Shown in pieces: positions 54,315-64,000 of a stretch of 64,000 nt of DNA. Source of the stretch: Legionella taurinensis (GTDB taxonomy: Bacteria > Pseudomonadota > Gammaproteobacteria > Legionellales > Legionellaceae); assembly GCF_900452865.1 (NCBI RefSeq), contig NZ_UGOZ01000001.1:682001-746000 (forward strand), written 5' to 3'. The first letter of the stretch is position 1; every line of letters begins with the position of its first letter. The notes beneath the pieces are model-generated. The model was not told where the DNA came from and did not search any database. It saw only the letters and a list, made by a program, of their open reading frames with translations. The translations under genes were made by a program, and so were the position numbers.

Positions 54315-55276
54315 AAGAAATACTAAAAAAAGCCACGGTCTTCTTTGCGAAAGAAGCGAAATAAAATATTCGTTTATCGCCCAACACAAGAAGACCTGGC
54401 CGGTTGGCATGATGTGCCACCTCATGGGCGTTACTCCTTCTGGATACTATAGTTATCAAAAGCGGAAACAAACAAACCCGAACAATGAACCAGAACATCA
54501 AGAGCTATTGGAGTGGGTTAAAAAAATCTCGGAATCCAGCAAGTTCTCGTATGGAAATCGCAGGATAAGGAAAGCACTGAATGCTCTTGGTTATCCGGTT
54601 GGTCGAAGAAAAACCCGTAGTTTGATGCGTGAGGCTGGTATTTTTGTTCGATATAAAAAGAAATACAAAGTGACAACAAACAGCAATCACAAGCAACCTG
54701 TTTTTGATAATGTGTTAAACAGGAGGTTTCAGGTCAATGAGCCCAATCGTGCCTATGTGTCCGATATTACTTATATCTCAACCCATGAGGGCTGGTTATA
54801 CCTGACCGTGGTGATTGATTTGTTTTCTCGGAAAGTAGTGGGTTGGAACATGAGTTCGAGAATGAAGACTGATACGGTTTGTGATGCATTAACAATGGCC
54901 ATTTGGCAGAGAAATCCAAGTTCAGGCCTTATTGTGCATTCCGACAGAGGCTCACAATATGCCAGTAAACAATATCGTGACCTTCTCAATCAATATGGTC
55001 TAGTGGGCAGCATGAGCAAAAAAGGTGACTGCTGGGACAATAGCGTTGCTGAAAGTTTTTTCGGTCGCTTGAAAGACGAGCGAGTACATTGGCGTAATTA
55101 TCAAACCCGGAAGGAGGCAAAGCAGGATATCCTCGATTACATTACTATCTTTTATAACAATCAAAGATTACATTCGTCTTTGGATTATCAAAGCCCAAAT
55201 CAATTTGAAAACCACTATTGGGGGCTATTGAAAAAAGTGGCTTAACTGGAGTGTACAAATTTGGTTGACCACGTCA
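54315..55276 (+). mobile_element. IS3-family element, 5'-truncated copy
   Basis: Matches the complete copy at 57814-59082 from its base 308 to the right end GGTTGACCACGTCA; the left 307 bases, with the left repeat and most of orfA, are missing. It abuts the ISL3 duplication unit. It can no longer transpose alone but offers 962 bp of direct homology to the other copy. Confidence 0.92.
54409..55245 (+). pseudogene. IS3-family orfB in the truncated copy
   Basis: The 278-residue integrase-core reading frame is intact and identical to that in the complete element (DDE residues in YVSDITY, VHSDRGSQY and NSVAESFFG). Without orfA and the frameshift context it should not yield functional transposase. 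Confidence 0.88.
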
Positions 55277-58214: not shown

Positions 58215-59051
58215 ATGATGTGCCACCTCATGGGCGTTACTCCTTCTGGATACTATAGTTATCAAAAGCGGAAACAAACAAACCCGAACAATGAACCAGA
58301 ACATCAAGAGCTATTGGAGTGGGTTAAAAAAATCTCGGAATCCAGCAAGTTCTCGTATGGAAATCGCAGGATAAGGAAAGCACTGAATGCTCTTGGTTAT
58401 CCGGTTGGTCGAAGAAAAACCCGTAGTTTGATGCGTGAGGCTGGTATTTTTGTTCGATATAAAAAGAAATACAAAGTGACAACAAACAGCAATCACAAGC
58501 AACCTGTTTTTGATAATGTGTTAAACAGGAGGTTTCAGGTCAATGAGCCCAATCGTGCCTATGTGTCCGATATTACTTATATCTCAACCCATGAGGGCTG
58601 GTTATACCTGACCGTGGTGATTGATTTGTTTTCTCGGAAAGTAGTGGGTTGGAACATGAGTTCGAGAATGAAGACTGATACGGTTTGTGATGCATTAACA
58701 ATGGCCATTTGGCAGAGAAATCCAAGTTCAGGCCTTATTGTGCATTCCGACAGAGGCTCACAATATGCCAGTAAACAATATCGTGACCTTCTCAATCAAT
58801 ATGGTCTAGTGGGCAGCATGAGCAAAAAAGGTGACTGCTGGGACAATAGCGTTGCTGAAAGTTTTTTCGGTCGCTTGAAAGACGAGCGAGTACATTGGCG
58901 TAATTATCAAACCCGGAAGGAGGCAAAGCAGGATATCCTCGATTACATTACTATCTTTTATAACAATCAAAGATTACATTCGTCTTTGGATTATCAAAGC
59001 CCAAATCAATTTGAAAACCACTATTGGGGGCTATTGAAAAAAGTGGCTTAA
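58215..59051 (+). CDS. IS3-family OrfB integrase core
   Basis: 278 residues from the first ATG, though the frame is open back to the slippery run (…YSFIAQHKKTWPVG before MMCHL), so the functional product is the OrfAB fusion. DDE catalytic residues in YVSDITY, VHSDRGSQY and NSVAESFFG. Intact. Confidence 0.93.
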   Translation: MMCHLMGVTPSGYYSYQKRKQTNPNNEPEHQELLEWVKKISESSKFSYGNRRIRKALNALGYPVGRRKTRSLMREAGIFVRYKKKYKVTTNSNHKQPVFDNVLNRRFQVNEPNRAYVSDITYISTHEGWLYLTVVIDLFSRKVVGWNMSSRMKTDTVCDALTMAIWQRNPSSGLIVHSDRGSQYASKQYRDLLNQYGLVGSMSKKGDCWDNSVAESFFGRLKDERVHWRNYQTRKEAKQDILDYITIFYNNQRLHSSLDYQSPNQFENHYWGLLKKVA

Positions 59052-60028: not shown

Positions 60029-60880
60029 ATGGCATTAAGGGACACAAGAAAGGTTGTTTTAGTAAATTACATAGGACAGTTTAGATCCGCTCTTCGATTT
60101 AACGCTTACCACTCTTCCCGTCCACCCACTAACAGAGAAAGCGGCCATAGACGGAGGGCGCGCATAAAAAGTGCAGGGGGACAATTTGATGATTATGAAT
60201 TAGGCAAATTATATACTGACGTAAAGGGGTATTGTTATTGGTGTGGGCAGTGTACCCGAAATAAAATGTGGCATGCAGACCATTATGTTCCTTTGGCACT
60301 TGGGGGGCCTAATTGTATTGAAAATATCGTTATATCCTGTCCAACATGTAATTTCAAAAAGGGAGCGCAAGATCCAATAGGATTTGCCAAAAAAATTAAC
60401 AAACAAGAGGGCGAAGAAAAAAGAGAGTTAATATTCGCCATTGCAAAAATTAATCGTAAACAATACGAAGATAATTGTAAAAAAATTAGAAACAAACCTT
60501 TAGTCATTACTGTTTGCTATCTAGATAGGATTAACGCATATGGATTCATGTTTTCCCAATTTAACAGAGATGTTATGCATGTATTTAACAGCTATTATGA
60601 AAAAACGCCCAGCCAAATGATGTTTAATCACTATAGTTCTGGTTTTGGACAGAATGTTTGGCTGATAGATAAAAGTGTATTTGACTTAATATTCAACACG
60701 TTGATTGGCTTAAATGATAAAAATATTAAATTTCAATTTATAAGAATTATAACAACGAGAGAACAGAGCCCCCCTTCTTCAGATAATTTTTTAACTCCGA
60801 TATTTACTAGGGATTCAATGCGTAAGCAGACTTTCGCCCCTGCCAGTTCCACAATTTGCAGTGCCGAAAACGTGACGTAA
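60029..60880 (+). CDS. HNH endonuclease with an unknown C-terminal domain
   Basis: 283 residues. The HNH nuclease domain (about residues 65-115) shows CYWCGQC, the catalytic HADHYVPLALGG, the Asn in GPNCIENI and CPTCNFKKG; the two CxxC pairs bind a structural zinc. A basic N-terminal region precedes it. Residues about 150-255 form a second domain I do not recognise. The last 20 residues may be read-through into non-coding DNA. No methyltransferase or other restriction gene is adjacent. 60881-60992 downstream has nothing I can name. Confidence 0.7.
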   Translation: MALRDTRKVVLVNYIGQFRSALRFNAYHSSRPPTNRESGHRRRARIKSAGGQFDDYELGKLYTDVKGYCYWCGQCTRNKMWHADHYVPLALGGPNCIENIVISCPTCNFKKGAQDPIGFAKKINKQEGEEKRELIFAIAKINRKQYEDNCKKIRNKPLVITVCYLDRINAYGFMFSQFNRDVMHVFNSYYEKTPSQMMFNHYSSGFGQNVWLIDKSVFDLIFNTLIGLNDKNIKFQFIRIITTREQSPPSSDNFLTPIFTRDSMRKQTFAPASSTICSAENVT

Positions 60881-61040
60881 CTGTGACAGTATAACGCTGT
60901 TTTTGGTCATTTTTGGCTGTTTTTTAGGGGTTGTGACGCATCGCAAGTTATTGATTTTATTGTAAATTATAAAAGGAGTATAGGCTTCGAACTGACCTAT
61001 CCCCTCAATTAGTACCAGTTTCTCGATGAGAAAACCAACA

Positions 61041-61859
61041 TTAAGCCACCTGTTGAGCAAAGTCCACTGGTGGAAAATAATTTAATGCACTATGTGGCCT
61101 CACATGGTTGTAATGATGCCGCCATTTACCAATTTCAAAACGCGCCTCTTCCAATGTTCTAAACCAATTTTGGTTGAGGCATTCGTTACGGAATTTCCCA
61201 TTAAGGCTTTCAACGAAACCGTTTTGTGTTGGTTTGCCAGGCTGGATAAAGTTCAACCGTACATTGGTTGATTTAGACCAGAAAAACATAGCCTTAGAGG
61301 TAAATTCGGTGCCATTGTCACAGACAATCTGTTCAGGGTAACCGCGCTCTTCACCAAGTTGTTCTAAAAAGCGTGTAACTTGTTGTCCAGAAATAGAGAG
61401 TGCAACAAGTTGCCCCAACAGTTCGCGGTTAAAATTGTCAATGACGTTCAATACACGAAAACGACGACCACTCGCCAATTGGTCCGAGACAAAGTCCATC
61501 GACCAACGCTTGTTCTTCTGAGTTGGCACATCCATAATCAAGCGAGGACGTTGGAGTTTTTTTCGTGTTTTAGTACGAATCTGCAGACCTTCCTCAAGGT
61601 AAATCCGATAGGTGCGCTTCTTGTTCTGAACTAAACCTTCTCTTCGTAACAAGCTATGCAGCAACAAATAGCCATAACGAGGATATTGAACGGCCAACTC
61701 TTTCATACGTGCTTTCAACCCATCATCCGAGCGTTTTTTCTTTAGGTAGCGGTACGCCGTGCGACTTAGCCCAACCAGTTTGCAGGCAACTCGCTCACTG
61801 AGCTTAAAGTGAGTTACCAAATGCTTTGCAACACGTTTCTTACTGGTGGGCTTTACCAC
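61041..61859 (-). CDS. IS407-like OrfB transposase
   Basis: 272 residues with DDE motifs MDFVSDQL, VCDNGTEFTS and NGFVESLNGKFRNECLN, the form typical of the IS407 group. Intact. Made as OrfAB through frameshifting. Confidence 0.93.
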   Translation of the reverse strand: MVKPTSKKRVAKHLVTHFKLSERVACKLVGLSRTAYRYLKKKRSDDGLKARMKELAVQYPRYGYLLLHSLLRREGLVQNKKRTYRIYLEEGLQIRTKTRKKLQRPRLIMDVPTQKNKRWSMDFVSDQLASGRRFRVLNVIDNFNRELLGQLVALSISGQQVTRFLEQLGEERGYPEQIVCDNGTEFTSKAMFFWSKSTNVRLNFIQPGKPTQNGFVESLNGKFRNECLNQNWFRTLEEARFEIGKWRHHYNHVRPHSALNYFPPVDFAQQVA

Positions 61860-62116
61860 TTTTTTGAAACAACGTCCTTTAGCGCTTCATTCTCCAGTAG
61901 CTTTTCTGCAAGAAGTTTTTTCAGCTTCTGGTTCTCTGATTCCAGCTCGCGTAAGCGCTTCGCTTCGTTGACCTCTAAGCCCGCATACTTGCTACGCCAA
62001 TTATAGAAGCAACCGCTTGTTATCCCCATACTACGACAGATATCACCAACCTTAGCGCCAGCCTCATGCTCTTTGATTGCTTTGATTATCTGCTCTTCGC
62101 TGTAACGTCTTTTCAT
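61853..62116 (-). CDS. IS407-like OrfA
   Basis: 87 residues: HTH (YSEEQIIKAIKEHEAGAKVGDICRSMGITSGCFYNWRSKY) and a leucine zipper (LRELESENQKLKKLLAEKLLENEALKD). Overlaps orfB by 7 bases at the slippery run. Confidence 0.93.
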   Translation of the reverse strand: MKRRYSEEQIIKAIKEHEAGAKVGDICRSMGITSGCFYNWRSKYAGLEVNEAKRLRELESENQKLKKLLAEKLLENEALKDVVSKKW

Positions 62117-62132
62117 TTTGAGTTCTCCATTG

Positions 62133-64000
62133 TCACAATTTTAATGGATTTCTCATCTTTGTCATGGGCTTATTTTTGGGGGATAGGTCAATGACAGGTT
62201 CTACCGCTTTCCAGCCCTCCGCCACAAGATTTTTTGCAGTTTGAACGCAATGATCAATGACGCCTATTTCATTCAGCAAAACGACCACCTGATTCAACGC
62301 CTCTCTTTTTTTATGAATTAAACTCTCATAGAGCCACCGCCGCTGAGACGCGTCTAATTGCGTGATGGCAAGAGCAATCGGTATGGTAATTTTCCCAGAC
62401 ATGACATCTTCTTCCAGGGCGCGCGCATCGCCGCGGTAAGCCCTCACATCATCCATGTATTGGTAGGCTAAACCTACATTCAGTGCATAATGACCCACTT
62501 GGGTCACTTGTTCCTCTGACGCATGCCCCAAAATAGCACCGATTTCCGCCAATGATTTGATATTGAGCCCCGTTTTTAAATTGTGCGTAGCCTCGATTGC
62601 CTTTAATAAGTCGGTATTATCACCCTGATCAACAGCCTGGAGCAGCAGATCCTGCATACCGGCTATGTCTGCACATTGACCCACAATAGACGAAACAGCG
62701 GTATCAAAATAAATTTTATAAATTTTTAACAGTTGCTCTGGGGTTAAGTTCGTTGTGTTCATAAGGCGATTGAAAAGAAAATACCCCAATAACCCCCCAT
62801 TGATGGCTCTGTCTATCCCGTATAATTCATGAACCGTTGGTTTACCACGCCTTAATTTGGAATTATCCTGAATGTCATCAAAAATCAGCGTGGAAGACTG
62901 CAGTATTTCTGCGATTACTGGCCACTCCCGGCACTGCTCAGAGTTACCACCTACTGCATTGATCACCACAAGACAAAAGAAAGAGCGCCAGCCTTTGCCT
63001 TTACGGAGTAGCATGTCGCGCAAAGGATTGACCCCCGCATCGTAAATTTTAACAGCAGACACATTGTGAATAATTTGTTGCAACTGTTCATCTTTAACCA
63101 AGGTCATCCCGAGATCGCTTGCCTGTGCGGGTAAATAGTAACGGTTAATCTCGTTCAAGACTAATCCCGCCATCTCCTCCATCAACCGGGTCTTACTTCG
63201 GAGAATTTTTTCGTTGTTTCCATAAATCTCAACAAATCCCACTCCCTCGGTCTCTTTCATGTTCTCTCGGTAACGAATGTTGATAACACCCTCGTAAAAA
63301 GCGAACGCAGTGAGGATTGTGATCACCTCCTGGTTATCAATCAAGGCTTCAATATACAATTCTGCATCGCACTCATCGAGTTTGATTTGCCATTTCACAG
63401 GATAGGTATTTAACGTGCGGTTACTCTGCCAGGTATCGAGCACTTGAATTGAAAAATGGGTATACGTTTTATAATTACCTACCTCGTCAATCACTTTAGC
63501 AATGGATTCAACGACCTCTGCTGTTTCTTTATCAAACACTTGATAAATGGAAAGTTGACGACCATCCTCCAGTTGAATGGAAAACCATATCCAACCTTTG
63601 TCTCCGATGGCTTTAGTGGATTTTTTATTATTAAGACTGAATTCATGATCGTACCAGCCCATGCCTTCAATTTCCTTATTATTTAACCTCCCCTTGACTG
63701 AGCCGTGGGGGATAAAATAATAAAACATCTGATCAACATTGTCATAATCACCCAATAAAGCGATACCCTCTTGACCATGCCGAATCGTTTTTTTATCCAT
63801 GCAAAACTCTAAATAGAGCACCTGCGAGTCATGATTAATTTCAATGCAATACAAACCGTCTTTTTTAAAAAAACTGGATTCACCAAAGTGTGCGGCAAAA
63901 TTTTCTTCATTCACTTCAAAGTCAATAGGCATAGACACATCAGGATAAATTTCTCTATTTTGCTCCATCATATCCGCAAGGTAATCCAACAGTTCATTTT
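62133..64000 (-). CDS. CrtC/AttH-like lipocalin domain fused to a trans-isoprenyl diphosphate synthase; both ends altered
   Basis: The frame continues past the right edge, so the true start is outside. Visible residues about 1-285 look like the CrtC/AttH (carotenoid hydratase, lipocalin-like) domain with the GMGWYDHEFS motif (about 109-118). Residues about 315-595 are a polyprenyl synthetase: first Asp-rich motif DDIQD (371-375) followed by RRGKP, then LKTG and a second motif reading DDVRA, not DDxxD, and MSGKITIPIAL. Small residues (Ser, Thr) precede the first motif, which tends to allow C20 or longer products. The final 18 residues are IS sequence. IPP/DMAPP would come from the mevalonate genes. 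Product and reaction are inference. Confidence 0.75.
   Translation of the reverse strand, partial: NELLDYLADMMEQNREIYPDVSMPIDFEVNEENFAAHFGESSFFKKDGLYCIEINHDSQVLYLEFCMDKKTIRHGQEGIALLGDYDNVDQMFYYFIPHGSVKGRLNNKEIEGMGWYDHEFSLNNKKSTKAIGDKGWIWFSIQLEDGRQLSIYQVFDKETAEVVESIAKVIDEVGNYKTYTHFSIQVLDTWQSNRTLNTYPVKWQIKLDECDAELYIEALIDNQEVITILTAFAFYEGVINIRYRENMKETEGVGFVEIYGNNEKILRSKTRLMEEMAGLVLNEINRYYLPAQASDLGMTLVKDEQLQQIIHNVSAVKIYDAGVNPLRDMLLRKGKGWRSFFCLVVINAVGGNSEQCREWPVIAEILQSSTLIFDDIQDNSKLRRGKPTVHELYGIDRAINGGLLGYFLFNRLMNTTNLTPEQLLKIYKIYFDTAVSSIVGQCADIAGMQDLLLQAVDQGDNTDLLKAIEATHNLKTGLNIKSLAEIGAILGHASEEQVTQVGHYALNVGLAYQYMDDVRAYRGDARALEEDVMSGKITIPIALAITQLDASQRRWLYESLIHKKREALNQVVVLLNEIGVIDHCVQTAKNLVAEGWKAVEPVIDLSPKNKPMTKMRNPLKL

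Follow-up and report, generated by a model that had tools for sequence, protein, structure and literature searches.

The 64,000-nucleotide stretch of Legionella taurinensis DNA analysed here (contig NZ_UGOZ01000001.1, positions 682,001 to 746,000; the window) ends in a gene that joins a CrtC/AttH-like lipocalin barrel to an isoprenyl diphosphate synthase in a single chain. We judge the chances about even that this fusion is a bifunctional terpenoid enzyme, which would synthesize a prenyl diphosphate and then hydrate its far end. This is our best reading because the chain unites a chain-making half with a barrel of the prenyl-hydratase fold and, in some lineages, keeps company with partners that add sugar or sulfate. 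Neither domain is new by itself. The gene and its parts lie within the window as follows:

62133–64000, minus strand: the portion of the fusion gene within the window (codons ~117–737), from the open reading frame (ORF) listing and the whole-genome frame.
63636–64000, minus strand: the portion of the CrtC N-terminal lipocalin domain within the window (Pfam residues 41–237; coordinates derived from residue numbers).
63639–63656, minus strand: the WYDHEF motif, its Asp aligned with the CrtC proton donor Asp268.
63585–63593, minus strand: Trp-x-Trp, aligned with CrtC Trp283/Trp285.
63219–63602, minus strand: the Lipocalin_9 domain (Pfam residues 249–376).
62286–63026, minus strand: the polyprenyl_synt domain (Pfam residues 441–687).
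62865–62879, minus strand: the first Asp-rich motif, DDIQD, from the ORF translation and alignment.
62448–62453, minus strand: the second Asp pair, DD, without the third Asp of the usual DDxxD, from alignment.

The 5′ part of the frame lies outside the window and reaches G000:C1:746346 (window-equivalent 64346), giving 737 codons in total in a source genome (G000) of 3.15 Mb and 2 contigs. The ORF listing confirmed a sequence-only reading of the window that had noted an open frame carrying WYDHEF, DDIQD and LKTG across 62133–64000; that reading gave no strand and also missed the truncation by an insertion sequence (IS) described below. Pfam scores for the window-genome protein were 48.2 bits for CrtC (PF07143; cut-off 22.5), 94.1 for Lipocalin_9 (cut-off 26.2) and 138.9 for polyprenyl_synt (cut-off 27), and the frame and its domains are far above chance level. 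The predicted structure is confident: the N-terminal half forms a double lipocalin barrel matching AttH, and the C-terminal half has the helical prenyl synthase fold (nearly all of the 50 fold matches listed are synthases). Fungal Diels-Alderases are another group with this barrel fold. The two halves of the intact orthologue in L. rubrilucens span residues ~26–388 and ~389–750 instead of the 1–300 and 310–600 proposed at first. The claimed order, a lipocalin/CrtC-like domain ahead of an isoprenyl diphosphate synthase, is thus borne out by Pfam, the model, its fold matches and the 80 kept loci, every one of which holds both halves in one frame. Because none of these 80 is interrupted, an assembly or frame artefact joining separate genes is ruled out.

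The whole fusion was found in 6 of 140 Legionellaceae genomes, including 4 of the 11 of the genus, so the two-domain architecture does occur in other Legionella. The six are G000 itself and five others, with identities of 97% in G057, 92% in L. rubrilucens (G001), 47% in L. erythra (G047), 33% in L. quateirensis (G121) and 30% in SW_31, a proteobacterial bin (G045). A wide scan with two barrel motifs against genome_contigs (84,980 species) recovered 298 relatives, of which the best 80 were analysed; the fusion is uninterrupted in all 80. By record title, these comprise 46 Myxococcota, 18 Bacteroidota, 9 Pseudomonadota, 4 unassigned records, and one each from Cyanobacteriota, Acidobacteriota and Thermoplasmatota. 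Plasmid records of two Tolypothrix strains and Streptomyces canus also carry it, annotated as a “polyprenyl synthetase family protein”. This spread rules out that the fusion is peculiar to this genome, and its restriction to Legionella is likewise ruled out by the relatives in other phyla and on plasmids.

The family tree comes from a fast search, and its long branches meet; the window clade stands apart in it from the L. quateirensis/SW_31 pair, a separation from which no number of transfers is read. One locus titled as a Klebsiella pneumoniae metagenome-assembled genome (L053) is probably mislabelled as a bin, since its fusion falls among Myxococcota. In a separate domain tree, a weakly supported branch (49) separates the fused synthases from 17 stand-alone ones; no single branch sets the fused barrels apart from AttH and CrtC (3 changes). 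The AttH-like set in this tree comes from 30 loci, 29 of which yielded a frame; L153 was kept in, although its very long branch probably reflects a wrong frame. A conjugative plasmid of Nitrosomonas stercoris (L042:7368-12084) encodes a prenyl synthase with a long N-terminal part without a Pfam match; its neighbours are an LCM-family methyltransferase and a monooxygenase of FMO-like type.

In the synthase half, all 80 fusions have DDxxD, the second DD, Arg463, Lys600 and Thr663 (numbered as in the L. rubrilucens protein) without variation. GGKRxRP is the usual motif in geranylgeranyl diphosphate (GGPP) and polyprenyl diphosphate synthases (1wy0); the fusion has GKxWRS in its place, differs further in the absent third Asp of the second Asp-rich motif, and carries a barrel fused in front. 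Small residues ahead of DDxxD fit a product of C20 or longer, and positions 4 and 5 before the motif are small in all 87 alignment rows (three loci, L013/L045, L014/L102 and L015/L122, appear twice in this alignment and L042 is excluded; the 80-row sets are without these duplicates). From these positions we infer that the chain made is probably C20 or longer. The missing third Asp speaks for a different division of labour: the C-terminal half would work as a class I terpene synthase, or would set free a prenol, with the barrel coming into play at a later stage or in another place; terpene synthases resembling isoprenyl diphosphate synthases exist (PMC7484799; this and the papers below are cited from parts of their text). 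Because the fusions keep DDxxD, the DD pair, Arg, Lys and Thr without exception, as working elongation enzymes do, we consider this very unlikely. The class I terpene synthase family PF19086 matched in 0 of the 6 fusion-bearing genomes, but its control likewise matched nowhere, so the absence carries no weight.

The barrel was aligned across 80 fusions, 6 CrtCs and 29 AttH-like proteins; among the CrtCs is the annotated one of a Roseobacter litoralis plasmid (NC_015741; 521 bits to NF045922). The position of Asp268 is Asp, and those of Trp283 and Trp285 are each Trp, in 80/80 fusions; the Asp, His and Glu of WYDHE are equally invariant. The Trp110 equivalent, placed by motif, is Trp in all 80 fusions and in just 3 of the 6 CrtCs. 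In the CrtC of Rubrivivax gelatinosus, Asp268, Trp110, Trp283 and Trp285 are critical, and the enzyme hydrates more than 20 C12–C20 terpenes at the terminal prenyl unit, including farnesol (17%) and geranylgeraniol (4%) (PMC12402844). Its Asp268 has been proposed to protonate a double bond by analogy with squalene-hopene cyclase (PMC4717167), and kievitone hydratase converts a prenyl group into a tertiary alcohol by hydration (PMC5805349).

These data suggest the following scheme. The C-terminal trans-prenyltransferase would condense isopentenyl diphosphate (IPP) onto allylic diphosphates, and the resulting prenyl chain, or its alcohol, would pass to the N-terminal double barrel. There, a buried Asp would protonate the terminal trisubstituted double bond, the Trp cage would hold the cation, and capture by water would leave a tertiary alcohol, the kind of reaction that kievitone hydratase and carotenoid 1,2-hydratase carry out. 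Glycosyltransferases, sulfotransferases and further tailoring enzymes, whose genes adjoin the fusion gene or are fused to it in some relatives, could then act on the hydroxyl so formed.

Such partners are present at a minority of loci. Glycosyltransferases of the types initially noticed as neighbours of the fusion gene occur at 9/83 loci (L040, L064, L065, L088, L109, L113, L114, L117 and L120), always on the same strand, with eight adjacent or fused and one 3 kb off; because the queries were genes already noticed next to the fusion, this figure is a count, not a test. On a Tolypothrix plasmid (L040; 9661-14190), a sulfotransferase, a glycosyltransferase, CrtC, Lipocalin_9 and the synthase form a single 1509-residue chain, and the same 1509-residue arrangement recurs in a myxobacterial Polyangiaceae bin (L113; 7658-12184). 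The neighbours at L065 further include LMF1, an FkbM methyltransferase and a cytochrome P450, and those at L117 a GDP-mannose dehydratase, an epimerase related to it and a P450. P450s lie near the fusion at 4/83 loci, and relatives of one desaturase at 6/83, all in Flavobacterium.

Several observations weigh against hydration. No glycosyltransferase of the searched kinds occurs at 74/83 loci, the window locus included; beside the window gene, the searched P450 and desaturase relatives were not found either. In R. gelatinosus CrtC, His239, Trp241, Tyr266 and Asp268 are each essential (PMC4717167). In the fusions, the position of His239 is mostly Asp, Gln or Glu (Asp in 53/80, His in 2/80), that of Trp241 is Phe in 79/80, and that of Tyr266 is Trp in 80/80. 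A profile–profile comparison paired the same motifs but matched CrtC weakly (probability 1.5%), and the CrtC equivalog NF045922 gave no match at E 1 to the whole window-genome protein or to the N-terminal half of the L. rubrilucens protein. The conserved Asp and Trp pair are no proof of hydration, because AttH-like proteins, whose function is unknown, carry both (28/29 each). With His239 and Tyr266 changed and NF045922 unmatched, a carotenoid hydratase proper is ruled out. A PF07143 search for true CrtC gave matches in 88/369 gammaproteobacterial genomes, with no carotenoid genes seen by eye in six inspected stretches around such matches.

The changed His and Tyr leave room for cyclisation of the cation or for a carrier role. 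In the former case, the barrel Asp would protonate the terminal double bond and an inner double bond would trap the cation, yielding a cyclic terpene; the protein would be a bacterial counterpart of the chimeric terpene synthases of fungi, its cyclase being a beta barrel. The same acid and Trp cage would serve, the invariant Trp in place of Tyr and the nearby P450s would fit, and the CrtC mechanism has itself been likened to that of squalene-hopene cyclase (PMC4717167). Nevertheless, those members of the fold considered here that have been characterised and act on prenyl groups hydrate (PMC4717167, PMC12402844, PMC5805349), and the glycosyltransferase partners are best explained by a free hydroxyl, so we regard a proton-started cyclase as unlikely. 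In the latter case, the barrel would be non-catalytic and would only bind, shield or hand over the prenyl chain, or set its length. Lipocalin-like folds are known ligand carriers, and the alteration of CrtC-essential residues agrees with such a role; an acid site (Asp, His and Glu of WYDHE) and a Trp pair invariant in 80/80 fusions exceed what a carrier needs, and we find this option distinctly unlikely. Synthesis followed by far-end hydration remains our preferred reading. The two-step terpenoid enzyme of the sequence-only reading is favoured in part by the conserved catalytic residues and by the glycosyltransferases, sulfotransferases and P450s that accompany some relatives; the changes at CrtC-essential positions count against it.

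The window copy is C-terminally truncated by an IS element:

60993–62190, minus strand: the IS element (limits approximate) replacing the 3′ end of the gene, from its repeated end sequence and comparison with G057.
61041–61859 and 61853–62116, minus strand: two ORFs in the element, IS3-like by eye.

Bases 62133–62190 are the IS end, which occurs at 7 other places in genome G000, and the window ORF owes its final ~18 residues to the element. Compared with the near relative G057, 313 bp are absent here: ~24 codons at the 3′ end of the gene proper, stop included, plus 240 bp further on. The window copy may be impaired, because the lost end contains positions conserved across the family in the alignment; three further Legionella genomes carry the gene intact. 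The ratio of nonsynonymous to synonymous substitution rates (dN/dS) is 0.14 between the window copy and G057 (713 shared codons), 0.41 between the window copy and L. rubrilucens (715 shared codons), and 0.35 between G057 and L. rubrilucens, both of them intact (740 codons). At G000:C1:1132414-1132668 (L128), a second copy survives as a decayed 5′ remnant, with three stops and 50% identity to residues 3–90. Many IS elements occupy the 52–62 kb stretch of the window; two 278-codon transposase-like ORFs (54409–55245 and 58215–59051) have identical listed translations. An ORF at 60029–60880 shows an HNH-like motif by eye, and ~620 bp there are missing from the otherwise matching G057 stretch.

An HMG-CoA (3-hydroxy-3-methylglutaryl coenzyme A) reductase gene lies in the window at ~49.7–50.8 kb, with further mevalonate-like genes recognised by eye at 38.9–51.8 kb, 10–23 kb from the fusion gene; a second HMG-CoA reductase gene is at G000:C1:1260756-1261829. 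Past the window end, on the strand of the fusion, are a methyltransferase-like ORF (L009:9057-10163; matches under the cut-off) and a 320-codon ORF with no confident family (L009:10403-11365). In L. erythra, a desaturase-family gene adjoins the fusion. A squalene/phytoene synthase family gene (PF00494; G000:C1:1675777-1676370, L177:8451-9404) occurs in 4 of the 11 genus genomes, precisely the four with the fusion, and is absent from G121 and G045; since these four are close kin, the co-occurrence may be mere shared ancestry. Beside it are two ORFs resembling family 2 glycosyltransferases by eye, likewise in L. erythra. L. rubrilucens and L. erythra are red-autofluorescent species.

Full-text searches of open papers, with subscription papers and bioRxiv mostly uncovered, turned up no description of the fixed fusion, its spread or its four-activity form; two actinobacterial terpene papers (PMC12860625, PMC13010261) are, in the parts cited, unrelated to it. 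The cited part of PMC8307374 describes the chimeric terpene synthases known as PTTS as confined to fungi. The most far-reaching interpretation, which we consider rather unlikely, is that bacteria have their own class of chimeric terpenoid synthases. In these, a beta barrel would take the place of the helical cyclase and set off carbocation chemistry at the distal end of the chain that the protein itself has made; in two phyla the class would have grown into a protein with sulfotransferase, glycosyltransferase, barrel and synthase that could alone yield a sulfated terpene glycoside from IPP. A widespread bacterial enzyme of this make-and-transform kind, with a barrel resembling a hydratase, would point to unexplored terpenoid clusters in Myxococcota, Bacteroidota and Cyanobacteria and provide a way to hydrated terpenes that needs no cofactor. 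It would also allow a direct test of the AttH/CrtC fold, AttH being without a known function, for general carbocation chemistry on prenyl chains.

Among known systems, CrtC (PF07143, NF045922) shares with the fusion its Pfam family, Asp268, Trp283 and Trp285, but is a stand-alone protein and lies in carotenoid clusters, and its His239, Trp241 and Tyr266 are altered in the fusion. AttH (2ich, Nitrosomonas europaea NE1406) is also stand-alone and has Ala at the His239 position. Kievitone hydratase (7a0q, Nectria haematococca), which the fungus secretes for detoxification and which lacks a synthase half, resembles the fused barrel in fold and motif only. The PTTSs are alike in plan, with a single chain whose C-terminal half makes a prenyl diphosphate and whose N-terminal half is thought to transform the product; their N-terminal half is a helical class I cyclase, whereas that of the fusion, in the model and its fold matches, is a beta barrel matching AttH.
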